From: a virus
DNA length: 36,039 nucleotides
Reading direction: 5' to 3' (one strand)
IMG/VR virus record: IMGVR_UViG_3300015168_000001
Location: 1 to 36,039 of that record
Shown: positions 4,754 through 22,657 of the stretch, piece after piece
Numbering within the stretch: position 1 is the stretch's first letter
Layout of the letters: each line of letters begins with the position of its first letter
Translations under genes and position numbers: made by a program
The notes under the pieces: generated by a model
Seen by the model: only the letters and a program-made list of their open reading frames with translations
Databases searched by the model: none
What the model was told of the DNA's origin: nothing

Positions 4754-4795
4754 GCAAAGGTTCAATGGCGGCAGGTAGGAGCGATAGGCTAAACG
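4754..4795 (+). promoter_or_regulatory. Late-promoter-like element, copy A (divergent)
   Basis: GCAAAGGTTCAATGGC at 4754-4769 is 14/16 identical to the element at five other sites. A TAAAC lies 20 bases further on (19 in the other copies), so this is the weakest member. It stands about 100 bases ahead of the terminase small subunit. Read as a promoter, it would start the packaging operon. Confidence 0.5.
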
Positions 4796-4892
4796 GAGCC
4801 CGCATATGGCTTCCGCTATTCCGCATCGGGCGCTTTTCGGTAGGACTATCGTTGAAGCCCAGGCTGCGGTTGACGTGTGGGATGAGGTTGAA

Positions 4893-5249
4893 ATGAGCGG
4901 ACGTCCGTCAAAATACCAGGACGACTATTGCGAGCAGGTAATCGCTCACCTGAGTGAAGGGGCGAGCCTGACATCATTCGCCGCGGAAATCGGCGTTGCA
5001 AGATCGACCATCAACGAATGGATGGGAGCTCACCCTGAGTTTTCGGAAGCATGCGCGCGCGCCAAAGCCAAATGCGCCGCGTGGTGGGAGCGCGTGAACC
5101 GCAATCTTGCCGTGTCCGGGATCGGCAACCAAGGGGCGTGCAAGCTCGGGCTGACAAATATGGCGGCGGACGATTGGCGCGAGAAGCAGGAAATCGAGCA
5201 CAGAGGCGGAGTCACCGTGCAGGCAGCCCGCTTCGACGAGGACTTGTGA
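4893..5249 (+). CDS. Terminase small subunit
   Basis: The 118-residue protein begins MSGRPSKYQDDYCEQVIAHL and has a helix-turn-helix at about 27-47 (TSFAAEIGVARSTINEWM), then an amphipathic helix typical of the oligomerisation region. This is the usual form of small terminases that recognise the packaging site and hand DNA to the large subunit. ATG 4893 was chosen over an upstream ATG at 4806 because TGAGG precedes it by five bases and family members start here. It is directly followed by the large subunit, whose GTG overlaps this stop. Confidence 0.85.
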   Translation: MSGRPSKYQDDYCEQVIAHLSEGASLTSFAAEIGVARSTINEWMGAHPEFSEACARAKAKCAAWWERVNRNLAVSGIGNQGACKLGLTNMAADDWREKQEIEHRGGVTVQAARFDEDL

Positions 5250-6586
5250 GCTTCCATTTCACAACGAAGCAGTGGCAAGCCCAGGAAATCCTGTCGGGCA
5301 GTGCGAAACACTTGATGCTGTTCGGCGGGTCGCGGTCCGGGAAGACGTTCCTCTTGGTTCGCAACGTCGTTATGCGGGCGATGAAGGCCGCTGGCTCTCG
5401 CCATGTGATCTTCCGCTATCGGTTTAATTCGGTGAAGGCATCGGTTATCGCGGACACGTTCCCGAAGGTTATGCGGCGTGCATTTCACGAGGTGGCCTAC
5501 AAGCTCGACAAGACCGACTGGTATGCGACGTTCCCGAACGGCTCGCAGCTATGGTTCGGCGGGTTGGACGATGCCGAACGCGCCGAGAAGATTTTGGGAA
5601 TGGAGTTCGCGACGATCTATTTCAACGAGTGTTCGCAAATACCGTACGAAAGCCGGAACGTTGCGATAACCCGCCTGGCGCAGAGCGTCGACCAAGAGAT
5701 CAGCGGCAGCGATGGGAGACCGCTCAAGCCTCGAATTTATTATGACGAAAACCCGCCGTCCAAGGGGCACTGGACTTATCGGTTGTTCATTCAAAAAGTT
5801 GATCCCGAAACGCGGCAGCCAGTTCGCAATGTCGACGACTATGTGTCGTTCAAACTCAACCCGTCCGACAATGCGGAGAACATCGCCGGCGATTATCTCG
5901 ACACGCTGCAAAGCATGTCGGCCCGCCTCAGGAAGCGGTTTCTTGATGGCGAATTTGGCGACGAAACACCGGGCGGCCTGTTCCATGACGAGATCATCGA
6001 AACTTGGCGCGTCACCGACGGCATAGTGCCGCAGATGGTTCGCGTAGTCGTCGGCGTGGATCCTTCGGGCTCGGGTGATGTGGACAATGCCGATAACGAT
6101 GCAATCGGGATCGTCGTTGCCGGGCTTGGCCTGGACGGAAATGCCTACATCATGGAGGATTGCACGGTGAAGGCTGGGCCTGCGACATGGGGGAAGGTCG
6201 CGACTGACGCATTCGACCGGCACCAGGCCAACATCATCGTCGGCGAAACGAACTATGGTGGCGCAATGGTTAATGCGACCATCCAGACAGCGCGGTCACG
6301 TACGCCGTTTAAGCAGGTGACGGCCACAAGGGGGAAGGCGGTCAGAGCCGAGCCGTTTTCAGCGTTGTACGAACAGGGGAAGGTTCGGCACGTCGGCCGC
6401 TTCCCGGAGCTGGAGGACGAGCTGACGTCGTTCACGATCTACGGCTTCACTGGCGGCGGATCACCCAATCGGGCTGATGCGGCTATCTGGGCGCTCGCTG
6501 AATTGTTTCCGGGCCTGACGAAGCCAAGGGCGGAAAAGCAGCCGATGGTTGCCATCCCGTCGATGGCCACGGCGTTCGCGAGGTAA
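5246..6586 (+). CDS. Terminase large subunit (packaging ATPase and nuclease)
   Basis: The 446-residue motor protein pumps DNA into the prohead and cuts it. The ATPase domain has Walker A GGSRSGKT at 27-34 and Walker B-like IYFNECS at 124-130; Asn stands where Asp is common, with the catalytic Glu128 present. The RNase H-like nuclease domain has VGVDPSGSG (Asp272), VGETNYGG (Glu334) and NRADAAIW (Asp411). The start is GTG 5246, overlapping the small subunit stop (GTGA) with GAGGA ahead. The frame is open much further upstream, but that extension is only a shadow of the small subunit gene. Confidence 0.93.
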   Translation: MSFHFTTKQWQAQEILSGSAKHLMLFGGSRSGKTFLLVRNVVMRAMKAAGSRHVIFRYRFNSVKASVIADTFPKVMRRAFHEVAYKLDKTDWYATFPNGSQLWFGGLDDAERAEKILGMEFATIYFNECSQIPYESRNVAITRLAQSVDQEISGSDGRPLKPRIYYDENPPSKGHWTYRLFIQKVDPETRQPVRNVDDYVSFKLNPSDNAENIAGDYLDTLQSMSARLRKRFLDGEFGDETPGGLFHDEIIETWRVTDGIVPQMVRVVVGVDPSGSGDVDNADNDAIGIVVAGLGLDGNAYIMEDCTVKAGPATWGKVATDAFDRHQANIIVGETNYGGAMVNATIQTARSRTPFKQVTATRGKAVRAEPFSALYEQGKVRHVGRFPELEDELTSFTIYGFTGGGSPNRADAAIWALAELFPGLTKPRAEKQPMVAIPSMATAFAR

Positions 6587-6627
6587 GCAAAGGTTCAAAA
6601 GCCGCTCGCTAAGCCAGCGCTTATGGT
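6587..6627 (+). promoter_or_regulatory. Late-promoter-like element, copy B
   Basis: GCAAAGGTTCAAAAGC at 6587-6602, 19 bases, then TATGGT at 6622-6627. Six bases (CGCGCC) separate TATGGT from the portal ATG at 6634. If TATGGT is a -10 box, the transcript would begin at or next to the A of that ATG. The spacer holds a short CGCT/AGCG inverted repeat. Confidence 0.65.
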
Positions 6628-6633
6628 CGCGCC

Positions 6634-8844
6634 ATGGCGATCTACCAGCATAACGAAGCACTGGACGAGGTCAACGCCGAGCCGGATGACGATCGCCTCG
6701 CCGAGGTCCATGATCGCGCCCTGCGCCGCTTCGACGCGACCATCTCCCCACAACAGGACATCCGGGCTCATGCCCTGCTTGCCCGCCGCTTCATTTCGGT
6801 CCCGGGTGCGCAATGGGACGGTGACTGGGGCTCGCAGTTCGAGAACAGCCCGAGGGTCGAGATCGACAAGCTCTCCAAGGGCGTCGACAAGATCGTCAAT
6901 GATTACCGCCAGAACCGGATTGTGCCCGACTTTCGTCCGGCCGGCGGCAACAGCGACAGCGAAACGGCGGCGACGCTCGACGGCATCCACCGCGCTGACA
7001 GCTACAATTACAAGGCGCAGCAGTCCCGCGATAACGCGTTCGAGGAAGCCGCGGCCGGTGGATTTGGTGCCTATCGCCTGACCAACGAATGGGCGGACCC
7101 GTTCGACAAGACTTCCGACGAGCAGCGCATCAACCCGGCGATGACGATTGCCGATGCTGACCAGCGGGTGTTCTTCGATGGCAACTCCAAGCTCTACGAC
7201 AAGTCGGACGCACGCTATGCCTTCGTCCTGACCGCCGACACGCGCGAGGCGTTCGAAGAGGAGCATCCCGACGCGGCCGTGTCATGGCCCGAGGGCGCAA
7301 AGCTGTACACGTTCGACTGGTTCACACCCGACGTCATCATCAAGTGCGAATATTACGAGGTCGAGGACCGCGACGAGAAATTGCTGATCCTGACGCACAA
7401 GGTGTCGGGCGAGGAACAGCGGGAATGGTCGGGCGACATATCGACCGAAGAGCTGGACGAAATGCGCAAGCAGGGCTGGGAGGTCAAATCTCGCCGCCAG
7501 AAGCGCCGCCGCGTCCACAAGTACCTGATGAGCGGACAAGAGGTGCTCAAGGATCAGGGCTTCATCGCCGGCAATTGCATCCCCATCGTGCCGGTCTATG
7601 GCAAGCGCTGGTTCGTCGATAACCAGGAGCGGTTCCGCGGCTATGTCTCCAAGCGGATGGACGCGCAGCGGATTTACAATGCGATGGTCTCGAACATTGC
7701 CGAAACGGACTCGCTGGCGCCGCGCGAAATGCCGATCTTCGCCGCCGAGCAAATGCCGCCCAACCTCGCCACATTGTGGGCCGAGCAGAACATCAAGCGC
7801 CATCCCTATGCGCTGGTAAACCCGCTGATTGATCCGACAACTGGGTCGATCGTCAGCGCCGGTCCGATCGGCAAGATCGAGGCGCCGCAGGTCTCGCCGT
7901 CGAAGGCCGCATTGCTCCAGATCGCAAGCTCCGATTTAAGCGACGAGGATCAGGACGCTGACCAGGTTCAGGCCAATGTGTCGGCGGATGCGATGGAGCT
8001 GGCCCAGACGCGCGTCGACGCCAAGTCCGGCATCTATCTCGATAACATGCGCCAGTCGGTTCAGCGCGAGGGCGAGGTTTACCTGTCGATGGCGCGCGAC
8101 GTGTACTTCGAGCCGGGTCGCACGGTTGAGACGATGTCCGAAGAGGGCGATGACGGCGAGGCGACGTTGCATGAACCCAAGACCGACAGCCAAGGGCAAT
8201 TCCGCATCGTCAACGACTTCGCTTGCGGCAAGTACAAGGTCATGGCCGATGTCACCGAAGCCACCGCGACGCGCCGCGACAAGGCGGTGCGCTCAAGCCT
8301 TAGCATCGCACAGGTTGCCCAGGCTGCGGGCGATCAGGACCTGGCGCAGATCGCTATCCTGACCGCCGTCATGAACCAGGAAGGCGAGGGCATGGGCGAC
8401 TTCCAGAAATACGCCCGCCAGCGGCTTGTGTTGAAGGGCGTTGTCGAGCCTACGGACGAAGAGAAACAGCAGATGGAGCAGGCGCAAGCGAACCAGCAGC
8501 CTGACCCGGCGCAGGAACTGGCGACCGCCAAAGCCGCCGATCTGGTCGCCAGCGCGAAGCTCAAGGAAGCACAAGCGGGCAAGGCCGAGGTCGACGCCGG
8601 CCAGTCGAAAGCGTCCACCGTGCTCAAACTCGCGCAGGCATCAACGCTCGGCGGCCCGGAATCCCCGCCGGCGGTCCCCGACGGGCTCGAGGCCGCGCAC
8701 AAAGTCGCTCAGATCGGGAAGACGGCGGCCGAGGCGGACCATCTGCGCGCAACCACTCAGCACTTGCCCGAGCAATTGTCGATCGAGGCACATAACGCCG
8801 AGACCAACCGGTTGAAGGTAGCAAGCGGAAGGCAGGTGAACTGA
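6634..8844 (+). CDS. Portal protein, P22 type
   Basis: The 736-residue protein has the length and sequence style of the P22-like portal family, including the N-terminal QDIRAHALLARRFISVPGAQW region and the wing/stem region through residue ~480. Near the C-terminus (about 605-680) is a long Gln/Ala-rich helical stretch (EEKQQMEQAQANQQPDPAQE and beyond), as expected for the portal barrel. Twelve copies form the ring through which DNA enters and leaves the capsid. No Shine-Dalgarno sequence precedes the ATG at 6634; the upstream bases are those of promoter element B. Confidence 0.93.
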   Translation: MAIYQHNEALDEVNAEPDDDRLAEVHDRALRRFDATISPQQDIRAHALLARRFISVPGAQWDGDWGSQFENSPRVEIDKLSKGVDKIVNDYRQNRIVPDFRPAGGNSDSETAATLDGIHRADSYNYKAQQSRDNAFEEAAAGGFGAYRLTNEWADPFDKTSDEQRINPAMTIADADQRVFFDGNSKLYDKSDARYAFVLTADTREAFEEEHPDAAVSWPEGAKLYTFDWFTPDVIIKCEYYEVEDRDEKLLILTHKVSGEEQREWSGDISTEELDEMRKQGWEVKSRRQKRRRVHKYLMSGQEVLKDQGFIAGNCIPIVPVYGKRWFVDNQERFRGYVSKRMDAQRIYNAMVSNIAETDSLAPREMPIFAAEQMPPNLATLWAEQNIKRHPYALVNPLIDPTTGSIVSAGPIGKIEAPQVSPSKAALLQIASSDLSDEDQDADQVQANVSADAMELAQTRVDAKSGIYLDNMRQSVQREGEVYLSMARDVYFEPGRTVETMSEEGDDGEATLHEPKTDSQGQFRIVNDFACGKYKVMADVTEATATRRDKAVRSSLSIAQVAQAAGDQDLAQIAILTAVMNQEGEGMGDFQKYARQRLVLKGVVEPTDEEKQQMEQAQANQQPDPAQELATAKAADLVASAKLKEAQAGKAEVDAGQSKASTVLKLAQASTLGGPESPPAVPDGLEAAHKVAQIGKTAAEADHLRATTQHLPEQLSIEAHNAETNRLKVASGRQVN

Positions 8845-8975
8845 TGAACATCAAACGCAAGCGCCGAACCATTAGCATCGGCCCGCTGCGTAGGCCCGTC
8901 GACGTAATGGCGGAGCGCAAGGCAATGTTCGAGGAATGGCTGCGCGAGGCGAACGAAATCATCACCGAAGGATAA
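8844..8975 (+). CDS. Small basic protein between portal and scaffold
   Basis: A 43-residue ORF, starting MNIKRKRRTISIGPLRRPVD and ending EANEIITEG. Its ATG overlaps the portal stop (TGATG) with GGAAGGCAGG ahead. The N-terminus is strongly basic and the C-terminus is an acidic helix. I do not recognise it. Placement between portal and scaffold suggests a minor head protein or an assembly factor. The tight coupling and clean reading frame argue for a real gene. Confidence 0.55.
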   Translation: MNIKRKRRTISIGPLRRPVDVMAERKAMFEEWLREANEIITEG

Positions 8976-8979
8976 GGCC

Positions 8980-9020
8980 GCAAAGGTTCAAAAGCGTGGC
9001 TCCCCTGCCGCGCCTAACTT
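8980..9020 (+). promoter_or_regulatory. Late-promoter-like element, copy C
   Basis: GCAAAGGTTCAAAAGC at 8980-8995, 19 bases, then TAACTT at 9015-9020. It lies in the gap between the small post-portal ORF and the scaffold gene, with the scaffold ATG 51 bases after the TAACTT box. Confidence 0.65.
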
Positions 9021-9071
9021 TCCCTCTTACGGCACCCGCCAAGCCGAGATTGGTGAGCGAAGGGGATGATC

Positions 9072-9887
9072 ATGGCCGACGAGCTGGACGACGAAGAACT
9101 GCTGCTCACCGATGAGGTAAAGCCTGGAACGGGCGAAGCGCAGGACGACCCACCAGAAGATCAGGACGAGGACGAGCTTGAGGTAACGCTCGGCGAAGAG
9201 CCCGCCGCGCCTTCGAGTGAGCGCGAAAGCGGCCTGGCCAAGCACCTACGCGCCGAGATCAGCCGCCGGGACAAGGAGCTGGCCGACCTTCGCCGCGCCG
9301 TCCCGCAGGCCCAAAAAATCGAGGTGGGCCCCGAGCCCACGCTTGAAGACTGCGAATATGACGAGGACAAGTTCAAGGCGCGGTGGAAAGAGTGGGACAG
9401 CCGGACCGAACAGGCGCAGGCCGCGGAAAGCCAATCCGAACAGCAGCAGCGCGAAGCCAGTGAGGCGTGGCAAAGTGAACTTAGGGTGTTCGAGACCAAG
9501 CGCGCCGAATTGAAGACCCCGCAAGCCCAGGAAGCGATCGACACCGCTATCGCATCACTGAACGCGGTCCAGCAGGCGGTGATTGTCAAAGCGGCGGACA
9601 ACGCGGCGAACGTCCTGTGCGCGCTCGGCATGTATCCCGCCAAGCTGGCCGAGATTGCCGCCATTACCGACCCGCTAAAGCAGGCAGTGGCTATCGCCAA
9701 ACTGGAAGGAACCCTGAAAGTGACGACACGCCGCAGAGCCCCGGACCCGGAAGAGATCGCCAGCGGCAGCGCGCCGATCCACGCCACCGACAAGACGCTT
9801 CAGCGGCTCGAAAAGGAAGCCGACAAGACCAACGATCGCACAGCGCTGATCCGGTACAAGCAGCAGCTCGCGGCAAAGGGCAAATAG
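9072..9887 (+). CDS. Scaffolding protein
   Basis: A 271-residue, highly charged, Gln/Glu-rich protein. The N-terminal ~50 residues are extremely acidic (DELDDEELLLTDEV), and predicted coiled coil follows at about 65-165. The C-terminus is basic and helical (LIRYKQQLAAKGK), as in P22 gp8, whose C-terminal helix-turn-helix binds coat. The position between portal and coat is the family position. The scaffold guides coat assembly into a prohead and then leaves. ATG 9072 was preferred to ATG 9066 because GAAGGGG then lies six bases ahead. Confidence 0.85.
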   Translation: MADELDDEELLLTDEVKPGTGEAQDDPPEDQDEDELEVTLGEEPAAPSSERESGLAKHLRAEISRRDKELADLRRAVPQAQKIEVGPEPTLEDCEYDEDKFKARWKEWDSRTEQAQAAESQSEQQQREASEAWQSELRVFETKRAELKTPQAQEAIDTAIASLNAVQQAVIVKAADNAANVLCALGMYPAKLAEIAAITDPLKQAVAIAKLEGTLKVTTRRRAPDPEEIASGSAPIHATDKTLQRLEKEADKTNDRTALIRYKQQLAAKGK

Positions 9888-9890
9888 CCC

Positions 9891-9931
9891 GCAAAGGTTC
9901 AAAAGCCTCGAACCCACGCCGAGGTTAGAAC
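9891..9931 (+). promoter_or_regulatory. Late-promoter-like element, copy D
   Basis: GCAAAGGTTCAAAAGC at 9891-9906, 19 bases, then TAGAAC at 9926-9931, ahead of the major coat gene. The spacer contains CCTCG/CGAGG, a short hairpin. A start a few bases later would give the coat mRNA a leader of about 110 bases. Confidence 0.65.
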
Positions 9932-9932
9932 A

Positions 9933-10047
9933 ACAGCCAGCCGCTCAATCCAGCGACCTCCGGCTGTGACGGGAGAGCATCAGAGGCGGATTTCCGGGCA
10001 AGCGCCCGAGGTTTCGTTTTTGCTCTCTTTTCACAAGGATTTTCGAC
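9933..10047 (+). promoter_or_regulatory. Structured 5' leader of the coat gene
   Basis: The leader can form two hairpins. The first pairs ACAGCC (9933-9938) with GGCTGT (9962-9967). The second pairs GAGAGCA (9973-9979) with TGCTCTC (10021-10027) and encloses an inner CGGGC-AAGC-GCCCG stem-loop (9995-10008). A T-rich run follows each of the last two stems. AAGGA at 10035-10039 is the ribosome site for the GTG. The nested stem could act as a stability element, an attenuator or a translation control of the most abundant virion protein. Pairings are seen by eye, not folded by program. Confidence 0.5.
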
Positions 10048-11316
10048 GTGGCAAATAGCTTCACAACCCAAGAACAGATCATGTTCGACGACATGATCGC
10101 CCGATTCGATGACGCGCTGATTATCGGCCGTCTCGCAACGAAATATCCGGTCCCCGCGCCAGAGATGATGGAGCGCGCCCGCGACGTCTTCTGGATTCCG
10201 GCGCCGATGATTGGTTCAAGCTATAACGGCTTCGACCAGACCGCCAACTTCGGTTCGCTGACCGAGACTGAAATCGCGGTGTCGATCGGCTACCACAAGT
10301 CGGACCCGCGCACCCTTTCTGCCAAGAACCTGCGTAACGAGACGGTTCTCAAGCAGTGGGGCAAGGCCGCCCGTCAGAAGCTCGCTTCGGACATCAACTA
10401 TGCGCTGTTCCAGACCGTTGCCCTTCAGGGCTCGGTTACGGTCAAGCGTACGGTTTCCGCGACGGGTTATGACGACGTTTCGCTTGCCGATGCGGCATTG
10501 ACCGAAATCGGCGCGCCGATGTCCGATCGTGTGTTCGTCGCTTCCCCGCGTACCGCCAACCTGATCGCCGGCGATCTCGCCAAGCGTTCGATGTATCCGG
10601 GCAGCCCCTCGGTTACGGCATATGAAAAAGCCCAGATCGGGATCGGCGTGGCTGGCTTCGACGTCTACAAGAACGACCAGTCGCTCAACCTCGGCCCGGC
10701 AACGGGTGGTGTGACCACGGTGAACGGCGCCAACCAATATTATGTGCCCGCCGCGACGCAGGTGGATAGTCTTGGCGTCGCGACCAACGTCGACAACCGC
10801 TACTCAAACCTGACCGTCACCGCCGCCACTTATGCGAACATCAAGGCCGGTGATGCCTTCACGATCGTCGGCGTCAACTCAATCCACATGATCTCGAAGC
10901 AGGATAGCGGCCAGCTTCAGACCTTCCGAGTGATCTCCAAGCCCTCGGCGGGCGTCATTCAGGTTGCTCCGGCAATCATTTCGAATGGCGGCGGCACCCG
11001 GCCTGAAGCGGAATACCAGAACGTCACCGCGGCCCCGGCGAATGGCGCGGCGATTACCTGGCTCAATACCGTGTCGGCACCGCTCAACCCGTTCTTCGTG
11101 CGCGACTCGCTGTTGCTGCTCCCGGGCAGTTACTCGGTCGATCCGCAGGACGGCTGGCAGGTGATGCGTGCAACGACCGATCTGGGCATTGCGCTGACAT
11201 ACACCCGCCAGGGGAACATCAACGACCTCAGCGTCAAGGCCCGTTTCGACGTGGACTTCGGGACCGCGCTGACCAGTCCGCAGATGGCCGGCATCGAACT
11301 GTTCAACCAGACTTAA
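10048..11316 (+). CDS. Major coat protein, P22 gp5 family
   Basis: The 422-residue protein matches the P22 coat family in length and in the sequence around MANSFTTQEQIMFDDMIARF and the C-terminal TRQGNINDLSVKARFDVDFG. These proteins have the HK97 fold with an inserted I-domain and form the T=7 shell. The start is GTG 10048, with AAGGA eight bases ahead. It follows the structured leader and precedes a hairpin at 11322-11357. Confidence 0.92.
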   Translation: MANSFTTQEQIMFDDMIARFDDALIIGRLATKYPVPAPEMMERARDVFWIPAPMIGSSYNGFDQTANFGSLTETEIAVSIGYHKSDPRTLSAKNLRNETVLKQWGKAARQKLASDINYALFQTVALQGSVTVKRTVSATGYDDVSLADAALTEIGAPMSDRVFVASPRTANLIAGDLAKRSMYPGSPSVTAYEKAQIGIGVAGFDVYKNDQSLNLGPATGGVTTVNGANQYYVPAATQVDSLGVATNVDNRYSNLTVTAATYANIKAGDAFTIVGVNSIHMISKQDSGQLQTFRVISKPSAGVIQVAPAIISNGGGTRPEAEYQNVTAAPANGAAITWLNTVSAPLNPFFVRDSLLLLPGSYSVDPQDGWQVMRATTDLGIALTYTRQGNINDLSVKARFDVDFGTALTSPQMAGIELFNQT

Positions 11317-12848: not shown

Positions 12849-15205
12849 TGGCCTATTCTCCGCTCCCGCCGCTGGGCAGCGCGGTCAAGGCCGCATCGCT
12901 TCCGGTCGTAATCGCCAGCGACCAGACGGTGCCGGTCAGCGGCACGATCACAGCCAGCATCAGCGGCTCCGCCGCCGTCACCGGCACGTTCTGGCAAGGC
13001 ACTCAACCCGTCAGCCTCGCCGCCCTCCCCGCGCTCGCTACGGGCGGGAATGTAATTGGCGGGGTTACGCAATCGGGCGCGTGGAGCGTCACTGTCAGCG
13101 GGACGACCGCAATCAGCGCGGCGAGCCTGCCGCTTCCGGCGGGCGCATCGACCAGTGCCAAGCAACCTGCGCTCGGCATAGCAGGAACGGCATCCACCGA
13201 CGTCCTGACGGTTCAGGGCATTGCGTCGATGACCGCGCTCAAGGTTGATGCATCGGCGACGACGCAACCCGTTTCCGGGACAGTTACCGCCAATGCGGGC
13301 AGCGGAACGTTCGCGGTTAGCGGCACTTTCTGGCAGGCCACTCAGCCTGTTTCCGGGACCGTCACGGCGAACGCTGGTAGCGGCACCTTTGCCATCTCAG
13401 CTGCGTCGCTTCCGCTCCCGACCGGGGCTGCTGCCGACGCCACGCTGACTGGTGGCACGGCCAAGGCCATCAACCGCGGCGGTGCCAAGGGAACGACCAC
13501 CGCCGCTGATGTGACATCTACTGCATCGGGCGCGAACCATCAGCCGATGGACGTGGCGATCTACGACGCATCGGGCAATCTCAAAGACCCAACCGCGATC
13601 CGGGCGCTGACCTCATCCGATCAGGTGACGGTCGCCAACGCGTCGCTCGCGGTGACGGGCACATTCTGGCAGGCGACCCAGCCCGTCAGCGGCACGGTTT
13701 CAGTCAATGCGCTTCCGACTGGCTCGAATGTCATCGGAGCGCTGACTGCGAACCAGAGCGTGAACGTCAGCCAGATTAATGGCGTCACTGCGCTCATGGG
13801 CAATGGCGTCACCGGGACTGGCTCGCCGCGCGTCACGATAGCCAGCGACAATACGGCCTTTAGCGTCAACCCTGCGCAGTTCGTCAATTCCGCCGATACG
13901 ACCATGCAGAGCGCGGCGACGGCGACCGGCAACGGTACGGTCCTGCCGATTACCGGCTATGGCACCGCCTTAGTCCAGATTACCGGCACGTTCGTCGGGA
14001 CCGTCACCTTCGAGGGGACCGAGGACGGCACAAACTTTGTCTCTGTCGGGGCGACCCAACTTAGCACTGGGGCTATTTCGGCCACCGCCACGACCCCGGA
14101 CATTTATCGCCTGTCAGTCGGTGGCCTGGCCAGCCTTCGCGCCCGCATTTCGGCTTATACATCAGGCTCGATCACAGCGCTCGGGCGCACAACCAACGCG
14201 CCTTATCCGACCAAGTATGTGATCGCGGCTGGAAACGTTGCCAGTGGCGCGACTGACAGTGGCAACCCGGTTAAAGTAGGCGGGGTATACAACTCCTCAC
14301 CGCCGTTGCCATCCTCAGGCCAGCGATATGATCTTCAGGTCAATGCCTACGGCACCCTAAAGGTCGCGTTGCAAGATGGCACCGCAACGAATTTCGCCGG
14401 AACCGCTCCGGCTGATGCACTGGTTAATGCGAGCTACTACGGTCTTGCCACCATCGGTTTCAATCACGTCTATAACGGCACCACATGGGATCGGGCGCGC
14501 GGCGATACGACGGCGGGGTCGTGGGTTCAACTCAAGGCGGCGATCCCAACCGGCTCGAATGTAATCGGCGCGCTGACCTCGAACCAGAGCGTTAACCTCG
14601 CACAACTCGTTGGAACCGCGACCGACGTAAACTCAGGCGTCAAGTCCGCTGGCACCCTTCGTGTTGTTCTGGCCACCGACCAGCCAGCCCTGACGAACAA
14701 GCTGTTGGTGACGCCGGATTCTGTGGCACTCCCAGCCAACCAAAGCACCAACGTAAGCCAAATCAACGCCGTCACCCCGCTCATGGGCAACGGTGTAACT
14801 GGCACCGGCTCGCTGCGGGTCACGATTGCCTCGAACAACACCGCCTTCACGGTCAACAATACCCCGACTACGCCGACCGCTTCGACAATCAGTTCCGCCG
14901 CCACGACCAATGCGACCAGCATCAAGGCATCGGCGGGCGTGCTTCATTCCGTTTCCGCATCGAATGTCGGCGCGGCAGCGGCTTTCCTCAAACTGTATAA
15001 CAAAGCTTCGGCCCCGACTGTCGGCACTGACGTTCCGGTCCTCACCATCCCCATCGCAGCTTCGGGCGTCGTTAACCTGACGTTCGGCGCGACTGGAATG
15101 GCGCTCGGCACCGGCGTTGCGCTGGCGATCACCAACCTGGTCGCGGATGCCGACACTACGGCGATCGCGGCGGCGCAGGTCAAGGTGATGACGAGCTATA
15201 TCTGA
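12848..15205 (+). CDS. Repetitive tail fibre-like structural protein
   Basis: A 785-residue protein made mostly of Ser/Thr/Ala/Gly/Val-rich beta repeats. Recurrent units include SLPVVIASDQ, GTFWQATQPVSGTV, TANAGSGTFA and SQINGVTALMGNGVTGTGS. The last ~110 residues form a non-repetitive domain (STISSAATTNATSIKAS onward), which may be the folding or binding domain. Such proteins form trimeric fibres or tail decorations. ATG 12848 overlaps the preceding stop by one base; the 12833 start lies inside the previous gene. The internal repeats are also visible at DNA level, which can cause length variation by recombination. Confidence 0.8.
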   Translation: MAYSPLPPLGSAVKAASLPVVIASDQTVPVSGTITASISGSAAVTGTFWQGTQPVSLAALPALATGGNVIGGVTQSGAWSVTVSGTTAISAASLPLPAGASTSAKQPALGIAGTASTDVLTVQGIASMTALKVDASATTQPVSGTVTANAGSGTFAVSGTFWQATQPVSGTVTANAGSGTFAISAASLPLPTGAAADATLTGGTAKAINRGGAKGTTTAADVTSTASGANHQPMDVAIYDASGNLKDPTAIRALTSSDQVTVANASLAVTGTFWQATQPVSGTVSVNALPTGSNVIGALTANQSVNVSQINGVTALMGNGVTGTGSPRVTIASDNTAFSVNPAQFVNSADTTMQSAATATGNGTVLPITGYGTALVQITGTFVGTVTFEGTEDGTNFVSVGATQLSTGAISATATTPDIYRLSVGGLASLRARISAYTSGSITALGRTTNAPYPTKYVIAAGNVASGATDSGNPVKVGGVYNSSPPLPSSGQRYDLQVNAYGTLKVALQDGTATNFAGTAPADALVNASYYGLATIGFNHVYNGTTWDRARGDTTAGSWVQLKAAIPTGSNVIGALTSNQSVNLAQLVGTATDVNSGVKSAGTLRVVLATDQPALTNKLLVTPDSVALPANQSTNVSQINAVTPLMGNGVTGTGSLRVTIASNNTAFTVNNTPTTPTASTISSAATTNATSIKASAGVLHSVSASNVGAAAAFLKLYNKASAPTVGTDVPVLTIPIAASGVVNLTFGATGMALGTGVALAITNLVADADTTAIAAAQVKVMTSYI

Positions 15206-16578
15206 TGCAGATACCTCTACTCTACGGCGTCGGCGCAACCGAAGCAGCTGAGTTTATCCAGACCGTCCCGCTCAACCTCGAGCCAATCATTCTCGACAAC
15301 AAGATTTCCAAGGGCCAGCTGCGCCAAGCGTGGGGCACGGTCCCGTTCGCGGTTGGCCCCGGGGTCGACCGCGGCGGCATCAACTGGAACGGCGCGTGCT
15401 ACCGCGTCATGGGCACCAGTCTCGTGCGAGTAAACGCCGATGCGACGATTGATACGTTGGGCGACGTGGGCGGGGTCGATCCGTGCACCTTCACCTATGG
15501 CTTCGACAGACTGGCGATCCGCAGCGACACCAATCTTTATTATTGGGACGGAACGGCTTTAACGCAGGTCACTGACGAGGACCTGGGCACGGTTATCGAC
15601 CTCATCTGGATCGACGGCTTCTTTATGACGACTGATGGGACCTACGTTGTCGTCACCGAACTGTCTGACCCAACATCAGTCAAGCCGCTCAAATACGGCT
15701 CGGCCGAGGAAGACCCTGACGCCGTTACCGGACTGATTAAGTTCTCCGACGAAGCCTACGTCCTTGGCCAATACACGATTCAGGTGTTCCAGAATGTCGG
15801 CGGCAATGGCTTCCCGTTCGCTCCGGTGCGGGGCGGGACGATCCCCTACGGCTGCGTCGGGCCGCTCGCCAAGACCTTGTTCGGCGGAAGCTTCGCCTTT
15901 GTCGGATCGGCCAAGAACGAAGCCCTCGGCGTATTCATGGCGGGGCAAGGGGTTGCGACCAAGATCAGCAACCGCGAAATGGACGATGCGCTCGCCGCCG
16001 CGGAAGATACAGTCACCATCGTACTCGACAACCGCGTGTCGAAGGACGAGGCGCGGCTTTTCGTGCACTTGCCCACTGAAACATGGGTCTTCATGCTCCA
16101 TGCTTCCCACAAGGTCGGCGAGCCGGTTTGGTATCGGCTGCAATCGGGCGCGGGCAATCCGTACCGGCTCCGGCATCCGGTCAATGTCTACGGCCAGACG
16201 ATGGTCGGCGATACCCAGACATCCGGGCTCGGGACGCTCAGCGATACGGTCTCCAGCCAATTCGGCGAGGCAGCGCAATGGCAGTTCGATGCCGGGCTGC
16301 TCTACAACGACGCCAAGGGGGTGATTGTGCACTCGGTTGAACTCGTCGGGCTTCCCGGACGCGGCAACGGGACGATCTTCCTTTCCATGACGCAGGACGG
16401 AGAAACCTATAGTCCGGAGCGCGCACTCAGTTACACGCTAGGCGACCGCAACAAGCGCTTGCAGTGGCGTCCCCACACACGGTTCGCTCAACGTATGGGG
16501 CTCAGGTTCCGCGGCTACGATACGGCCGTCAACGGCTTCGCGGCGATTGAGCTGACCGCCGCCCCGTTGACGGTATGA
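15205..16578 (+). CDS. P22 gp10-like packaged DNA stabilisation protein
   Basis: The 457-residue protein begins MQIPLLYGVGATEAAEFIQT and has the repeated beta-strand pattern (YYWDGTALTQVTD, VFMLHASHKVGEPVWYRL) of the gp10 family. In P22 a hexamer of gp10 binds below gp4 and closes the portal channel, holding the DNA in. The ATG overlaps the preceding stop (TGATG) and its own stop overlaps the next start (ATGA), so the neck proteins are co-translated. Confidence 0.87.
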   Translation: MQIPLLYGVGATEAAEFIQTVPLNLEPIILDNKISKGQLRQAWGTVPFAVGPGVDRGGINWNGACYRVMGTSLVRVNADATIDTLGDVGGVDPCTFTYGFDRLAIRSDTNLYYWDGTALTQVTDEDLGTVIDLIWIDGFFMTTDGTYVVVTELSDPTSVKPLKYGSAEEDPDAVTGLIKFSDEAYVLGQYTIQVFQNVGGNGFPFAPVRGGTIPYGCVGPLAKTLFGGSFAFVGSAKNEALGVFMAGQGVATKISNREMDDALAAAEDTVTIVLDNRVSKDEARLFVHLPTETWVFMLHASHKVGEPVWYRLQSGAGNPYRLRHPVNVYGQTMVGDTQTSGLGTLSDTVSSQFGEAAQWQFDAGLLYNDAKGVIVHSVELVGLPGRGNGTIFLSMTQDGETYSPERALSYTLGDRNKRLQWRPHTRFAQRMGLRFRGYDTAVNGFAAIELTAAPLTV

Positions 16579-17039
16579 GCCAGATCCCGCGCGATCTGCT
16601 GGCCCGGGCCTTCCCCAATATGCCGCGGCTCTGGGCGGCGTTCGAGGATCAAGCCGACAAGGTGTATGTCGAGCATGACGCGCGCATTTCAGACACCGAG
16701 ACCAAACTGGGTGAAGTCGACGGCGCGGTCGCGGCAGTAACGAGCGGCCGCGTGCAGCCGGCCAACCCGCTTTTGGACGCAATTTCGGCCCTGCCGGACA
16801 CGCCAGGCGCGATCGAGCAAGTGGCGACCGGAGTTATCGGGGTCCGGCCAATCGACGCTGCCGACACCCATAGCCTCCTCAGCCGCGCCATCGCCGATAC
16901 CCGTTATGCTTTGGGGCGAGTTACGCCTGCAACCAGCACCAGCCCCGGTGCGCCCGGGCAGTATTCGTGGGACGCCAATCATTTATATATTTGCGTCGCC
17001 TCGAACACCTGGATGCGCGTTACGGTCGCCACTTTCTAG
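16575..17039 (+). CDS. Hypothetical tail/neck protein
   Basis: A 154-residue protein with a helical N-terminal half (LARAFPNMPRLWAAFEDQADKVYVEH) and a small C-terminal beta module (SPGAPGQYSWDANHLYICVASNTWMRV). That module is common at the ends of phage tail proteins. Its place right after gp10 is where P22 has gp26, the tail needle, but I see no long coiled coil, so homology to gp26 is not supported. It is the last gene before promoter element E. Confidence 0.65.
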   Translation: MSQIPRDLLARAFPNMPRLWAAFEDQADKVYVEHDARISDTETKLGEVDGAVAAVTSGRVQPANPLLDAISALPDTPGAIEQVATGVIGVRPIDAADTHSLLSRAIADTRYALGRVTPATSTSPGAPGQYSWDANHLYICVASNTWMRVTVATF

Positions 17040-17041
17040 GC

Positions 17042-17082
17042 GCAAAGGTTCAAAAGCAGCATCACCGTCAGGGCGGTAAGGT
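17042..17082 (+). promoter_or_regulatory. Late-promoter-like element, copy E
   Basis: GCAAAGGTTCAAAAGC at 17042-17057, 19 bases, then TAAGGT at 17077-17082. The spacer has an ACCG/CGGT hairpin. Downstream, CGCGCA (17087-17092) and TGCGCG (17103-17108) can pair just before the ribosome site of the ejection-protein gene. Confidence 0.68.
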
Positions 17083-17119
17083 TCCTCGCGCAACGCCGTA
17101 GCTGCGCGGGAGATACCTC

Positions 17120-17767
17120 TTGGGCCTCTTTTCGTTCATTGGTGGCCTACTCGGCGGACAGTCCCAAAAATCCGCCATTCGCCACGCCTCCGACCAGCAA
17201 ATTGCTATGGAGAAGGAGGCGCTTGCTCAGCAGCAGCAGCAGTTCGGCGTCACGCAGCAGAACCTGTCGCCGTGGATCACCACAGGCACCGGAGCGCTCG
17301 GTGCCGAAAGCAATTTGCTCGGCCTCGGAGGAAACGATGCGCAGCAGGCCGCGATTAACGCCTTAATGCAAAGTCCAGGCTACCAAAGCCTCTACCGAAA
17401 CGGGCTCGAGGCCAACCTTCAGAACGCCAGCGCGACGGGCGGGATTCGCGGCGGCAATGAGGTGCGAAGTCTGGCCGACTTTGGCGCGGATACGCTCGCC
17501 CAAACTATCCAGCAGCAGCTCGCCAATTTGGGCGGCATTTCAAACCAGGGCCTCGGCGCTGCGACTGGGCTGGGTGGCCTTAGTCAGGCCAATTCCAACG
17601 CGCAGACGGGCCTGTATGGCGCGATGGGCGCATCCAGGGCTGGTGCGACCTCGCAGATCGGCGGGATTAATGCTGGTATGTGGAACAGCGCCGGCGGCTT
17701 CCTCGATAGCCTGGCCAGCATGATCCCCGGCTTGGGCGGCGCGTCCAGCATCTTTAAGGGCATCTAA
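17120..17767 (+). CDS. Ejection/internal virion protein (short)
   Basis: A 215-residue, Gly/Ala/Gln/Asn-rich protein starting MGLFSFIGGLLGGQSQKSA, with a hydrophobic, glycine-rich N-terminus and C-terminus (MIPGLGGASSIFKGI) and a Gln-rich helix between. This is the pattern of the smallest of the three podoviral DNA-transfer proteins, which leave the virion first and enter the cell envelope. The start is TTG 17120 with GGGAGA ahead. The next gene follows its stop directly. Confidence 0.75.
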   Translation: MGLFSFIGGLLGGQSQKSAIRHASDQQIAMEKEALAQQQQQFGVTQQNLSPWITTGTGALGAESNLLGLGGNDAQQAAINALMQSPGYQSLYRNGLEANLQNASATGGIRGGNEVRSLADFGADTLAQTIQQQLANLGGISNQGLGAATGLGGLSQANSNAQTGLYGAMGASRAGATSQIGGINAGMWNSAGGFLDSLASMIPGLGGASSIFKGI

Positions 17768-19990
17768 GTGTCCGAGTACGATCCGGTCGATTATGCTTCA
17801 CTGGTGGCGGCGGGCAAGGCGCTGGTCCCAGATTATGTGACGCAGCAACTCCAGCGCCAGATGGGGCAGGCGCAGGTTCAACAGGCGCAGCTCGAAAACG
17901 TGAAGGCCGCGGCGGATGCCAGCGAGGACCTCTCGTTCCACCACGATTTAACGCAAACCATGCTTCACCCGAGCGCGGATAACGTCTCGGCGCTGATCAT
18001 GCGCCATCCCAAATATGCCGAGCAGATCAAAACCGGCTGGGATGTGCAGGACAAGACGACCAAGGATGCCGACTTTCACCAGCAGGCCCAAATCTACTCG
18101 GCCGCGGCCGGCGGATATTATGACCAGGCAGCGGCGTCGCTACAGACGCGGCTCGATGCCGAGAAGGCCGGTGGCCTGCCCGTCGATCCTGCCGATGAAG
18201 CGATCCTGACCGCGCTAAAGTCCAAAGACCCAGTGCAGCAAAAGGCCGTTGTCGGCACGCTCGCGTTCCACATGGCCGCCGCAAACCCGGACAAGATGGA
18301 CTCGATCCTGGGCGCGCTCGATAAAGACAAGGGCTTCACGCTTGGCCAAGGCGAGACGCGCTATGACGAAAATGGCAAGCCCATCGCGTCGGTTGCCGCA
18401 AAACCGGATTATCTCGTCATCCCGCAAGGCGGCAAGGCAGTTCCGCTCAATGCGGCCGCAGCGGGCATTCCTACGGAAGGAGGTGATCCGGCATCTACTG
18501 GCGCTCCTCCTGCGACTGGTGGCGGCAAACTCGACCCGATCGCCTTCTTCCACCAGTTCGTAGCCCCCCATGAAGGCGGATATGCCGCGCATGACGCGAA
18601 TGGGGCGCCAGTCAATCACGGCATCAACCAATCGGCCAATCCCGGCGTGGACGTCGCCAATCTTTCGACCGACGACGCAGCCAAGATTTTCGCCGATAAG
18701 TATTTCAAGGCCAGCGGCGCGGCTGATCTGCCGCCCGCACTCGCTGCGGTTCACGCCGATACCTCATTCATCAATCCCAAGCGTGCGCAGCAGTTTCTTG
18801 CCTCTTCGGGAGGCGACCCGGCGAAGTATATGCAGCTGCGCCAAGCGTGGATGGGGAGCCTCGTCGCCAGCGATCCTGCTAAATATGGCAAATATGCGAA
18901 GGCATGGGGCAACCGTAATCGCGATTTAAGCGCTTATGCGGCGCAAGTGGGCGGTGACGCCCCGCAAGTCGCTGGCGGCCCTACAGCGCACCCCGGCGAC
19001 GCTCCAGGCACGATATACGGCAGTCCCGTCCCACAGGCCCGCACGCTCACCGCAGCCGAAGCCGAAGCGAAGGGGTTGGATTCGGCCAAGGTCTACGAAC
19101 AGAAGCCGGACGGCTCTATGAGCGCGGTGGGCGATGCGACTGCCGACGAATCCCTGCCCGGCAACACGAACCTAACGGGTCCGGCGTATTTCAACTCGCT
19201 GCCCAAAGGGCTCCAGCCGATCATCCGGACCATCGTGGACGGTCGTTTCCCGATTAGCGCCAAGATGACCTCGCCCAACGTCATCAAGTATTTCAAGATC
19301 GCCGCAGTGGTGGACCCGTCGATCGACGCGAGCACTTATCAACGGCGCGTTGCGACACAGCGCGACTTTTCTTCTGGCGGCAAGAGCGGGCAGGCACTTA
19401 CCAGCGCGCGCACGGTTATCAACCATCTGTATAATATCGCCTACGCGTCAGAGAAAATTGGCGGAGTGGGCTTTACGCCCGCCAATGAACTCAGCAATTG
19501 GTGGAAGCGTAAGCAAAGCGACCCCGAGCTGCAGCACTATTTGGGAACATTGACGCCACTTTCGATGGAGTTGCCCAAGTTCCTCGGCGGTAAGGCTCCA
19601 ACAATCCATGACATTGCCCAAACCCGAGAAGATTTTTCACCGGACAAGGGGCCTGGCGCTCGGCGCGCACAGATCGGAACGACGCTCGATCTGATGAACG
19701 GCCGTTTTGACCCAATCGTTCAGGCCTATGCGCAGGGCATGAACAAGAACTCGGACATCACAGAACTTCTCTCGCAGGCCCCGAACGGCTCGGTAGCCGC
19801 TGCCAAGCTTCGCGCGCTGCAAAACTATGCTGCTGGCGGTCATTTGGATGATGTGAAAGGTGGAAGCGCGAAGGCCGCCGCTCCGCCCAAGCTGCCCGCT
19901 GGCGCGCATCCAGTCGGGACCTACCAGGGCAAGACTGTCTATCAGTGGCGCGATACCAATGGGCAGCCCCATCGGGCCGTCGCGCAGTGA
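17768..19990 (+). CDS. Internal virion protein with GH108-type peptidoglycan hydrolase domain
   Basis: A 740-residue ejection protein. Residues ~257-388 resemble the ZliS/glycosyl hydrolase 108 fold: HEGGY at 268-272 with the presumed catalytic Glu269, Asp276, then VNHGINQSANP and a helical second half. The flanks are long helical regions with no clear motif. During infection this protein would be injected and open the peptidoglycan locally so DNA can cross. GTG 17768 directly follows the preceding stop. The stop overlaps the next gene's GTG (GTGA). Confidence 0.8.
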   Translation: MSEYDPVDYASLVAAGKALVPDYVTQQLQRQMGQAQVQQAQLENVKAAADASEDLSFHHDLTQTMLHPSADNVSALIMRHPKYAEQIKTGWDVQDKTTKDADFHQQAQIYSAAAGGYYDQAAASLQTRLDAEKAGGLPVDPADEAILTALKSKDPVQQKAVVGTLAFHMAAANPDKMDSILGALDKDKGFTLGQGETRYDENGKPIASVAAKPDYLVIPQGGKAVPLNAAAAGIPTEGGDPASTGAPPATGGGKLDPIAFFHQFVAPHEGGYAAHDANGAPVNHGINQSANPGVDVANLSTDDAAKIFADKYFKASGAADLPPALAAVHADTSFINPKRAQQFLASSGGDPAKYMQLRQAWMGSLVASDPAKYGKYAKAWGNRNRDLSAYAAQVGGDAPQVAGGPTAHPGDAPGTIYGSPVPQARTLTAAEAEAKGLDSAKVYEQKPDGSMSAVGDATADESLPGNTNLTGPAYFNSLPKGLQPIIRTIVDGRFPISAKMTSPNVIKYFKIAAVVDPSIDASTYQRRVATQRDFSSGGKSGQALTSARTVINHLYNIAYASEKIGGVGFTPANELSNWWKRKQSDPELQHYLGTLTPLSMELPKFLGGKAPTIHDIAQTREDFSPDKGPGARRAQIGTTLDLMNGRFDPIVQAYAQGMNKNSDITELLSQAPNGSVAAAKLRALQNYAAGGHLDDVKGGSAKAAAPPKLPAGAHPVGTYQGKTVYQWRDTNGQPHRAVAQ

Positions 19991-22221
19991 GCGACACGGG
20001 CCTCCAGGAAATTCCGCTCGACGCGCCGCTTGACCATGAACAGCCAGGTGGAGCGGCTCATGCCGATGCTGCGCCGCCTGCTGTCCATGTCCCGGAACTA
20101 ACAACCGAGCAGAAGCAAGCGATCCTGAATTACATTCCCAAAGCGAAAGACGGTGCCGATCTTGACTCGTACGTCAGCCAGCTAACAAACAAGGGGTTAG
20201 GTATACCCAAAGCGCAGGACGTAATTGACGCGTACCACCGCGGCGCCCGCCAGTTTTCCTTGCACCAGATCGCCGCCCCAGTCCCCGCGCAACCGCAAGC
20301 CGCTCCTGCCGAACACCCCCCCGAAGGCATGGCCGAGATTCCCGCCGACGCGAAGGTCGATTATGGCACGGCGTCGGGACTGTCCCCGGACGAGATCAAG
20401 GCGCGGGTCGAGAAGCTGCCGCCGTTGATGCGGCCGGGCCTGAGCGACCTTGGTGTGTCGAGCATGGTCGCGGGGCTGGACAATGAAGGCGCCGCTGTAG
20501 CGCAAGCTGTCGGCGCAATGCTGCTCCATCCGGAGGAAAGTATCCGCACGCACGGCCAGAATATTGCTGACGCCTACCATGTAGGTCGGACCAACGCGCT
20601 GATGATGGACGATTATGTCAGGTTGCAGCATCCGGACCTCGCGCCAGTAGCCGAGATCGGCGGCGCCTTGGCCAATCCGCTTGGGGGGGAAGCGAAGGGC
20701 GTAGTTGGGTTGGCGAAACTCGGACTGGGATATGGCGTGGTTTCCGGCTTCGAGCAGGGCAATGGAACGGTCCAGGATCGCCTCAAGGACGCCGCAGAGT
20801 CCGGGGTGATCGGAATGGTTGCCGCACCTGCAGTGGGCGCCGTCGTGAAGGCTCCTGGCGCCGTCAAGCGCCTGTTCGAAGCGCGCCCTTTGAACGAGGT
20901 AGGCGCCGCCGCGGAGCGCCAAGGTCTCGATCTCTTGCCGGCTGACGTTGGCGGCCCCGTTACGCGCGGTCTCACCGCCGCCACCGTGCAGACGCCGCTG
21001 GGTGCCCCGAGCATCATCCACGGTGCGCAGCGCTTGAATGATCAGGCGGCCGGCGTAGTCGACCGCGTGGCCAATGATATGGGGGCGCCCCTCGATGCCG
21101 AAGGGGCCGGCCAGGCTGCGGTCGAGGGCGCGAACAAATACATCAAACTCAGTTCAAAGTTGGGCGGGCGGATGTACGACGCCGCTGCCGCCAAGGCAGG
21201 GGATACCTCGGTCGACCCAGTCGGGGCTCGCGCGGTGCTAGACGATCAGATTGCACGTCTTGAAGCGGTTCCCGGCGGCGGCGCTGGTCTAGCCGAAGCC
21301 AAGGCGTTGCGCGCGAGTTTAGAGGGCAAGTTTTCCGTTCAGGGGGTGCGTGACATGCGCACCGAAATGTTCGTCGCTCCGGAGCTTCGCGGGGGTCCTG
21401 TCGAGGCTCGCCAGAAGGGAGTAGTCACCGCGGCTGCGCAGGACGTGGTCAATAGCTTGCGCGCGGCCGGCAAGGGCGACGCGGCCGACGCGTTTCAAGC
21501 AGCGGACAAGAACTGGCAGCAGCGGCTCCAGACGATCGACGGGATTATTCAGCCCATTATAGGTCGCAAAGGCGAGAAGTCGGGCGAGCAGGTCATCCTG
21601 GCGCTCAACGCGGCATCAAAATCAAATAATGCGAGGCTGGCCGGCTTCGTCCGCAACTTGCCAGACGAAGAGCAGGGCGTCGTCCGGGCAAGCCTGCTTT
21701 CCCCGCTGGGCAAGGACAAGGACGGCAATTTCGCGCTGAGCCGCTTCGCCACCGATTGGAAAGCGATCGGCGACACGGCCAAAAGCGCGCTGTTCGCGCC
21801 CGAAGCGCGCGCGGCACTGAACGACTTGGCCACTGTCGGCGACGGTGCGAAGGCGGCGCAGAAATACTCAAATCACTCGAATACCGCGCGGGGCGTCATC
21901 GCCGAGCGGACATTCGGCAGCGTGGCCACGGGCGCGACCGTCGGACTCGGGCTGGCCACTCTTGGTAAGGCTCTGGCTGTGCAGGGAGGGGCGGGCTTGT
22001 TGCTTAGCTCCCCGCGCTTTGCGCGCTGGCTTGCTCGTGCGCCGGCGACGAAGGTTCCAATTCCCCAATATGTCGCGCGGCTTTCGAAGATTGCCGCTGC
22101 CGAACCAGCGGTCGCCAACGTCGTTCACCAATTCCAAGCCCGCCTTAGCGAGGCGATGACGTCAACTCCACTGGCCGCTCAGCAGGAAAATGATGTTGGG
22201 GAGCCAGTACCACAGGAATAA
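19987..22221 (+). CDS. Large ejection/DNA-transfer protein
   Basis: A 744-residue protein: an acidic Pro/Ala-rich N-terminus, then long helical segments with several Gly/Ala/Val-rich hydrophobic stretches (around 210-290, and ATVGLGLATLGKALAVQGGAGLLLSS near the C-terminus) able to enter membranes. Its place as the last of three consecutive internal proteins matches P22 gp16, although I see no diagnostic motif. GTG 19987 overlaps the upstream stop and is preferred to ATG 19945, which lies inside the upstream gene. Confidence 0.72.
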   Translation: MSDTGLQEIPLDAPLDHEQPGGAAHADAAPPAVHVPELTTEQKQAILNYIPKAKDGADLDSYVSQLTNKGLGIPKAQDVIDAYHRGARQFSLHQIAAPVPAQPQAAPAEHPPEGMAEIPADAKVDYGTASGLSPDEIKARVEKLPPLMRPGLSDLGVSSMVAGLDNEGAAVAQAVGAMLLHPEESIRTHGQNIADAYHVGRTNALMMDDYVRLQHPDLAPVAEIGGALANPLGGEAKGVVGLAKLGLGYGVVSGFEQGNGTVQDRLKDAAESGVIGMVAAPAVGAVVKAPGAVKRLFEARPLNEVGAAAERQGLDLLPADVGGPVTRGLTAATVQTPLGAPSIIHGAQRLNDQAAGVVDRVANDMGAPLDAEGAGQAAVEGANKYIKLSSKLGGRMYDAAAAKAGDTSVDPVGARAVLDDQIARLEAVPGGGAGLAEAKALRASLEGKFSVQGVRDMRTEMFVAPELRGGPVEARQKGVVTAAAQDVVNSLRAAGKGDAADAFQAADKNWQQRLQTIDGIIQPIIGRKGEKSGEQVILALNAASKSNNARLAGFVRNLPDEEQGVVRASLLSPLGKDKDGNFALSRFATDWKAIGDTAKSALFAPEARAALNDLATVGDGAKAAQKYSNHSNTARGVIAERTFGSVATGATVGLGLATLGKALAVQGGAGLLLSSPRFARWLARAPATKVPIPQYVARLSKIAAAEPAVANVVHQFQARLSEAMTSTPLAAQQENDVGEPVPQE

Positions 22222-22238
22222 GAACTGAAGGACGCGCT

Positions 22239-22595
22239 TCACTTCGCGCAAAGGCTCTTTGCTTGCTCGGCTAGATCAAACCGCCCCTTTGACAGAGCCA
22301 AACTGATAGCCTGCGGGCATTGCCCAGCGATGATCATCTTGCCGAGCTTGGACAAAAGCTGGCGCTCTTGGAAATTGCGGATTTGCTGGCCGAACTCGGC
22401 TCCATCGGCAGCCCCTTGCTGGCGGGCCTGTTCCGGCGTCGGGGTATTAACATATTGGCTAAAATCAGCGCCTAAGTCTCTCTGCGACGGCGGCGTGATC
22501 TGATTGCACTGAACAACGGTCCCGACTGGGAAGCACGTCACCTGTGCTTGGACAGGGGTAGCTAGTAGAGCAACGCAAGCGAATACACGTTTCAT
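22239..22595 (-). CDS. Secreted small protein, reverse-strand accessory gene
   Basis: A 118-residue protein with a good Sec signal peptide (MKRVFACVALLATPVQA, cleavage likely after VQA). A Cys/Gln-rich mature part with cysteines near CFPVGTVVQC and two near the C-terminus could form disulphides in the periplasm. It is the only minus-strand gene within the virion block, lying between the ejection genes and the tailspike promoter. This is a common place for a moron gene expressed from a prophage. I do not recognise its family or target; superinfection exclusion or host-fitness roles are speculation. Confidence 0.7.
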   Translation of the reverse strand: MKRVFACVALLATPVQAQVTCFPVGTVVQCNQITPPSQRDLGADFSQYVNTPTPEQARQQGAADGAEFGQQIRNFQERQLLSKLGKMIIAGQCPQAISLALSKGRFDLAEQAKSLCAK

Positions 22596-22616
22596 GCCTG
22601 ACCTTTAGCACCCCGC

Positions 22617-22657
22617 GCAAAGGTTCAAAAGCCCAAATCTCCCCGCTTCCGTAAGGT
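22617..22657 (+). promoter_or_regulatory. Late-promoter-like element, copy F
   Basis: GCAAAGGTTCAAAAGC at 22617-22632, 19 bases, then TAAGGT at 22652-22657 followed by CGCGCC, the same six bases as after the box of copy B. It precedes the tailspike-region genes by 20 bases and lies just upstream of, and divergent from, the reverse-strand secreted-protein gene. Confidence 0.68.

Follow-up and report, generated by a model that had tools for sequence, protein, structure and literature searches.

Repeated Boxes in Front of the Late Genes

What is the function of the short repeated boxes that precede the late genes of this phage, and which protein reads them? The window analysed here is one complete IMG/VR virus record, 36,039 bases long. 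The 16-mer GCAAAGGTTCAAAAGC is found in five exact copies on the + strand, and a sixth + strand copy, GCAAAGGTTCAATGGC, differs from it by two mismatches (14/16) (Table 1). The original prediction had described five identical copies and one variant in this orientation, and an exact search confirmed it; beyond these six, no site with three or fewer mismatches was detected when both strands of the window were scanned. Six matches at ≤3 mismatches compare with 0.26 expected, and zero shuffles gave six. The hexamers TATGGT, TAACTT, TAGAAC, TAAGGT, and TAAGGT start exactly 19 nt past the five exact boxes, and TAAAC starts at 20 nt past the variant box; the predicted TA-rich boxes, including the spacing longer by one base in the variant, were all found as described. 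The dinucleotide TA has a frequency of 0.0213 in the window (2.1% of dinucleotide positions), and its presence in 5/5 boxes at a single offset has a p-value of ~4e-9, which does not yet allow for the choice of offset. All six boxes lie in gaps, before the genes for the terminase small subunit (TerS), portal, scaffold, coat, P22 gp7-type ejection protein, and a tail protein, and the gene annotation agrees for all six with the proposed placement before late genes.

Table 1. Predicted late promoters and associated genes in the window.
Feature	Position	Strand	Remark
Candidate late activator, 116-aa basic HTH protein, pI 11.0	4400..4750	+	Directly before terminase small subunit
Activator box 1, variant GCAAAGGTTCAATGGC	4754..4769	+	Four bases past HTH gene stop; similar position in relatives
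-10-like TAAACG, promoter 1	4790..4795	+	20-nt spacer; predicted +1 4802; TerS ATG 4806
Terminase small subunit	4806..5249	+	Pfam Sf6_terminase 6.9e-07; phrog_309 2.6e-24
Activator box 2, before portal	6587..6602	+	Exact match
-10 TATGGT	6622..6627	+	Predicted +1 6634 = A of portal ATG, leaderless
P22-like portal	6634..8844	+	Pfam PF16510 4.1e-139
Activator box 3, before scaffold	8980..8995	+	Exact match
-10 TAACTT	9015..9020	+	Predicted +1 9027
Activator box 4, before coat	9891..9906	+	Exact match
-10 TAGAAC	9926..9931	+	Predicted +1 9938
P22-like coat protein	10048..11316	+	Pfam PF11651 1.4e-120
Activator box 5, before gp7-type DNA ejection protein	17042..17057	+	Exact match
-10 TAAGGT	17077..17082	+	Predicted +1 17089
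Activator box 6, before tail gene (199 aa)	22617..22632	+	Exact match
-10 TAAGGT	22652..22657	+	Predicted +1 22664

We interpret the six elements, with a probability of about 0.78, as activator-dependent, sigma70-type late promoters of a P22-like temperate podovirus, with the HTH protein of Table 1 as the putative activator. The sequence argues strongly for promoters; the identity of the activator is the more conditional part. From the box, its fixed spacing, the -10 bases, the strand, the gene placement, the conservation of the layout, and the presence of the HTH protein, we infer that the sites would start transcription, that they would need an activator, and that the HTH protein would be that activator. 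In the proposed scheme, host RNA polymerase with the housekeeping sigma factor would recognise a TANNNT -10 element, and a phage activator on the 16-bp box (approximately -47 to -32, in place of an otherwise needed -35) would recruit the polymerase. The activator would most likely be the small HTH protein encoded by the last gene before the late block. The first site, in or beside the activator's own gene, would drive terminase, and the other sites would restart transcription before portal, scaffold/coat, ejection proteins, and tail. Box and HTH protein would have diverged together in each related phage.

The spacers had been suggested to hold short GC hairpins. Only the spacer of the box at 8980 folded better than shuffles (z -2.7), and the remaining spacers gave folding z-scores between -1.5 and +0.4, so this part of the prediction was dropped. 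Hairpins as a part of the promoter were rejected because they are not common to the spacers and the spacers are unconserved across phages.

Related Phages Carry Their Own Boxes

The exact 16-mer is private to the window phage, and the architecture is common to related phages. A scan of IMG/VR with GCAAAGGTTCAAAAGC returned 14 single-copy matches and zero contigs with two copies, and relatives were therefore sought by protein. A single-sequence portal search gave one viral relative; a portal alignment used as query gave 205, of which 80 were kept. The search of genome contigs returned one contig, QHMY01000052.1 (L023), in a MAG labelled Verrucomicrobia; it is a close relative of the window's phage family and probably a misbinned phage contig. 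The closest annotated phage is Sphingopyxis phage VSN-002, whose portal is 55% identical to that of the window. VSN-002 has zero copies of GCAAAGGTTCAAAAGC and carries instead its own box of the TAATTTGCCCAAATG type (TAATTTGC[CG][CA]AAA[TG]G) in four copies, with TA at a fixed distance, preceding the terminase small subunit, portal, coat, and ejection protein genes. About 20 further relatives have 2-6 copies each of the phage's own box. The upstream regions of the closest loci show the same layout in other letters: the box is GCAAATGTTCAAACGC in L023 (exact at four places in the locus, plus variants), GCAAAAGTCCAAAAGC in L024, GCAAGAGTTCGAAAGC in L026, AACAAAGTTCACAAGC in L031, TAAACCGGTAAAATGA in L055, AGGGAAGGCAAGCGGA in L044, and AAAAGCATTAATCGCC in L029. 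A few box copies are not followed by TA at the expected offset; in L028 and L032, for example, CACTGT stands there. L026 also contains an extra box-like copy at 990-1005 (CCAAAAGTTCGAAAGC), 169 nt before the portal promoter box and with no TA at the expected distance, which may be an operator without a promoter. When carried over to relatives, the original prediction failed for the exact box and held for the layout of a box, 19-nt spacing, and TA before late genes. The exact sequence is private to the window phage, and the promoter class would be a family spread over related phages.

For pooled statistics we used 23 P22-like podovirus records including VSN-002 (0.53 Mb), each scanned with its own box at ≤2 mismatches and with TA not required. 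Equal frequency inside genes and on the other strand in relatives had been named beforehand as evidence that would speak against promoters; all 66 boxes found by the scan were on the late strand, and the opposite strand had none. TA was present at exactly +19 in 57/66 boxes, a figure that is partly circular for those relatives whose seeds were picked with TA anchoring and not for the window. Of the two key bases of a sigma70 -10 element, A-11 was present for 91% of the 66 boxes and T-7 for 70%. Among 58 TA-anchored sites from 22 phages, 43 had T at -7 against a background of 0.16 (p 2e-22, overstated because related phages are not independent). In a profile over the 22 phages the information lies almost only in -47 to -32 and -12 to -7, and the spacer carries little. 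Within the box, the A-rich start, G-41, A-37/A-36, and G-33 are conserved, and the other positions differ between phages. A -35 element (TTGACA at 16-18 nt spacing) was not detected, the mean best match being 2.38 vs. 2.24 at random TA sites; its absence is expected for an activator-dependent promoter.

Two other readings of the boxes are touched by these data. It is improbable that the box serves an alternative sigma factor, of host or phage origin, as a -35-like element. The two-part layout with fixed spacing would suit such a factor, and some relatives of the HTH protein have weak sigma region 4 matches. Against it, the 16-bp box starts 35 nt before the -10 element, well past normal sigma spacing, the -10 element is of the housekeeping type (A-11, T-7), and a full sigma factor would be longer than the HTH protein. 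Among the larger, Pfam-scanned proteins of the window, a record that may be incomplete, neither an RNA polymerase nor a sigma factor was found. That the boxes are recombination or packaging repeats, or chance repeats, is hardly credible: mosaic phages often have repeats at the borders of their modules, but these boxes have a sigma70 -10 element at a fixed distance and zero copies on the opposite strand, and their positions relative to genes are conserved across phages despite differing box letters.

Placement of the Sites and a Predicted Leaderless Portal mRNA

Across phages the sites recur before portal, scaffold or coat, the gp7-type ejection protein, and tail. From box start to gene the distance is 47 nt for portal in most phages, 86-95 nt for scaffold, 47-96 nt for the ejection protein, and 61-71 nt for tail. 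When the T of TA was taken as -12 to set the predicted +1, the portal start codon began exactly at this base in 14/22 phages, and in 20/22 phages it was located at the predicted +1 or ≤4 nt downstream. In the window, TATGGT-CGCGCC-ATG puts the predicted +1 on the A of the portal ATG. Since start codon and predicted +1 coincide, the portal mRNA should be leaderless. Caulobacter commonly has leaderless mRNAs (375, 9.6% of coding sequences; PMC4117421), which makes such an mRNA plausible for an alphaproteobacterial host. The host is probably an alphaproteobacterium of the sphingomonads, as judged solely from VSN-002. The original reading of the fixed spacing as a promoter gains support from A-11 and T-7, from the absence of a -35 element, and from the portal start codon on the predicted +1.

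The same distances bear on whether the box acts after transcription, as an RNA element in translation, processing, or termination. Start-associated sequences of cluster K mycobacteriophages are located immediately beside start codons and have a proposed role in translation (PMC3203893). The boxes resemble them in being short, asymmetric, repeated before genes, and mostly oriented one way, and the boxes of this phage group always stand before genes on one strand. We nevertheless consider an RNA element very improbable. Depending on the gene, the box stands 47 to 157 nt from the start codon, whereas the fixed distance is that to the -10 element; the spacers have no common sequence or fold; and for portal the predicted transcript begins at the start codon, downstream of the box. 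An Rfam scan of the window gave no match, and a tRNA scan found none.

An HTH Protein as Candidate Activator

The idea of a phage activator guiding the polymerase now has a concrete candidate in the 116-aa HTH protein, an assignment that stays inferential. Iterative profile search extended the family to 20 related loci, in all of which the homolog is encoded immediately ahead of TerS; pI values in the family are 8.8-11.4. The AlphaFold model consists of a helical hairpin and a three-helix HTH (pLDDT 81). Profile matches of the protein are generic and weak (Lrp/AsnC, Myb-type HTH), and Foldseek of the model gave weak Lrp/AsnC-type HTH matches only, none below E 0.001. Several HTH relatives match the middle part of phrog_323 (‘transcriptional regulator, D5-like’) weakly, with a best value of 2e-08 (L050); that profile is 319 aa long, unlike the HTH protein, and the window's own protein is without a match to it. 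Membership in the GcrA family was considered and rejected, the likeness being by eye only: no Pfam match to it at E≤0.1 was found among 20 HTH members.

In most relatives with a detected first site, that box is found within the HTH gene or at its 3' end. Among 37 loci with enough flank, the box was present/absent in 12/5 loci with the HTH gene vs. 2/18 loci without it (Fisher p 2e-4). The five HTH-bearing loci failed an automated box criterion, and some of them have shifted or degenerate sites; L033 is one of the two exceptions of the other kind. The HTH profile is present in 10/10 long records, weakly in L033, where the HTH gene at 2090-2384 seems split in two frames and the weak profile match covers the second half only (E 0.002); a frameshift, a short form, or an error in sequencing may account for the split.

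The distance between boxes correlated with the distance between HTH proteins after controlling for portal (0.42, p 0.0005), and also after controlling for coat (0.47), scaffold (0.47), and TerS (0.79). VSN-002 and L047 share the same box and have nearly the same recognition helix, with portals just 62% identical; L023 and L027 have ..AATGTYCAAACGC and the motif RSYxAVH[RK]R in common, with portals 60% identical. In subsets of 12 loci, the structural proteins gp10 and gp4 tracked the box better than the HTH protein, and the N-terminal half of the HTH protein tracked it as well as the DNA-binding half. The covariation is significant and not exclusive to the HTH protein; it therefore agrees with the HTH protein reading the box and was not taken as proof of it. 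Shared ancestry may explain much of it.

These results leave a rather unlikely alternative in which the elements are late promoters activated by a protein other than the HTH protein, from either the host or the phage. In its favour, gp10 and gp4 correlate with the box as strongly or more strongly in small subsets, and within the HTH protein the recognition helix is not where the covariation is concentrated. A host factor of a single specificity fits poorly with boxes that differ between phages with similar capsid genes. As for another phage protein, no other non-virion family was found in 6 or more of the 10 long records, the presence of the HTH gene tracks that of the box, and the first site is in the HTH protein's own gene. 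The annotation of VSN-002 (L022) includes a telomere resolvase (14717-15835), which raises the question of a linear plasmid prophage, and a PrtN-like activator (14449-14712). The PrtN-like protein was rejected as a common activator, being absent from every other record. With the HTH protein as the preferred candidate, phage-to-phage differences in the spelling of the box probably follow this small DNA-binding protein, whose gene immediately precedes the late genes.

Comparison With Known Late Control Systems

In P2 (Ogr), P4 (Delta), and Mu (C), one phage activator serves several late promoters that have no -35 element; Ogr sites centre near -55, and the Ogr-type activator is a zinc finger protein. 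The window phage is similar in placement only, with one predicted activator site before each of several late operons. It differs in the sequences and positions of the sites and in its HTH protein, which is Myb/Lrp-like and not a zinc finger. No profile match linked the HTH protein to Ogr or Mu C, and the Foldseek hit to Mu C was insignificant (E 1.1). No RNA polymerase is present among the Pfam-scanned proteins of this possibly incomplete record, unlike in single-subunit phage RNA polymerase systems.

The Ltr/RinA/ArpU regulators of Gram-positive siphophages have binding sites at the 3' end of the regulator gene and turn on late genes via a normal -10 element (PMC13123087 and work cited there). 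The phage described here shares with Ltr/RinA a small basic regulator before terminase and a site at the end of the regulator's own gene. Ltr binds several repeats at one promoter, giving a single long late transcript (PMC13123087), whereas here one 16-bp box is found at each of 4-6 promoters, with no tandem repeats. None of 20 HTH members matched an ArpU/RinA-type family in Pfam, NCBIfam, or PHROGs. By analogy, the system would work like the Ltr/RinA and P2 Ogr schemes combined, and by sequence it belongs to neither. P22 has one late promoter (PLATE) and a late antiterminator (PMC12111858). The virion gene set and order are the same here, but multiple activated promoters appear to replace the single promoter and antitermination.

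No description of the boxes was found in the open literature searched, with subscription papers mostly outside its coverage. On balance we favour an undescribed family of late activators (Myb/Lrp-like HTH proteins encoded before terminase) with 4-6 promoters per genome, diversifying box specificities, and a leaderless portal mRNA, in which dispersed activated promoters would have replaced late antitermination in alphaproteobacterial P22-like phages. Late gene control is largely unknown outside a few model phages, and the boxes offer a readable promoter code, with a named candidate activator, for a group of P22-like phages of what are probably sphingomonads. The natural protein-box pairs may be mutually orthogonal and would allow a direct test of activator/operator co-divergence; with boxes that differ from phage to phage, a set of separate genetic switches is already at hand for testing, and the pairs might find use as promoter parts in alphaproteobacteria. 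For portal, a leaderless mRNA is a clear prediction that can be checked.

Gene Content of the Window Phage

The late block is P22-like: it encodes an Sf6/P22-type TerS, portal, scaffold, coat, tail accessory factor gp4, and a stabilisation protein, as well as the gp7-type ejection protein, tail proteins, and a lysozyme. Integrase, RecT, and YqaJ genes are located on the opposite strand, and the phage is therefore probably temperate. A 118-aa ORF on the - strand (22239-22595) lies within the late block, immediately ahead of the last predicted promoter. It has a signal-peptide-like start and no match in Pfam or PHROGs, and it looks like a moron gene. At the record start, positions 1-138 encode a thrombospondin type 3/OmpA-like calcium-binding repeat (DHDGIPDAVDKCPNYPEDLEPFDDEDGCPD...; Pfam TSP_3 4.5e-05) that is fused in frame to the C-terminal domain of a helicase; the probable cause is a chimeric assembly that took in host DNA. 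An N6/N4 DNA methyltransferase gene (726-1682), possibly relevant to control that depends on methylation, adjoins the truncated helicase.
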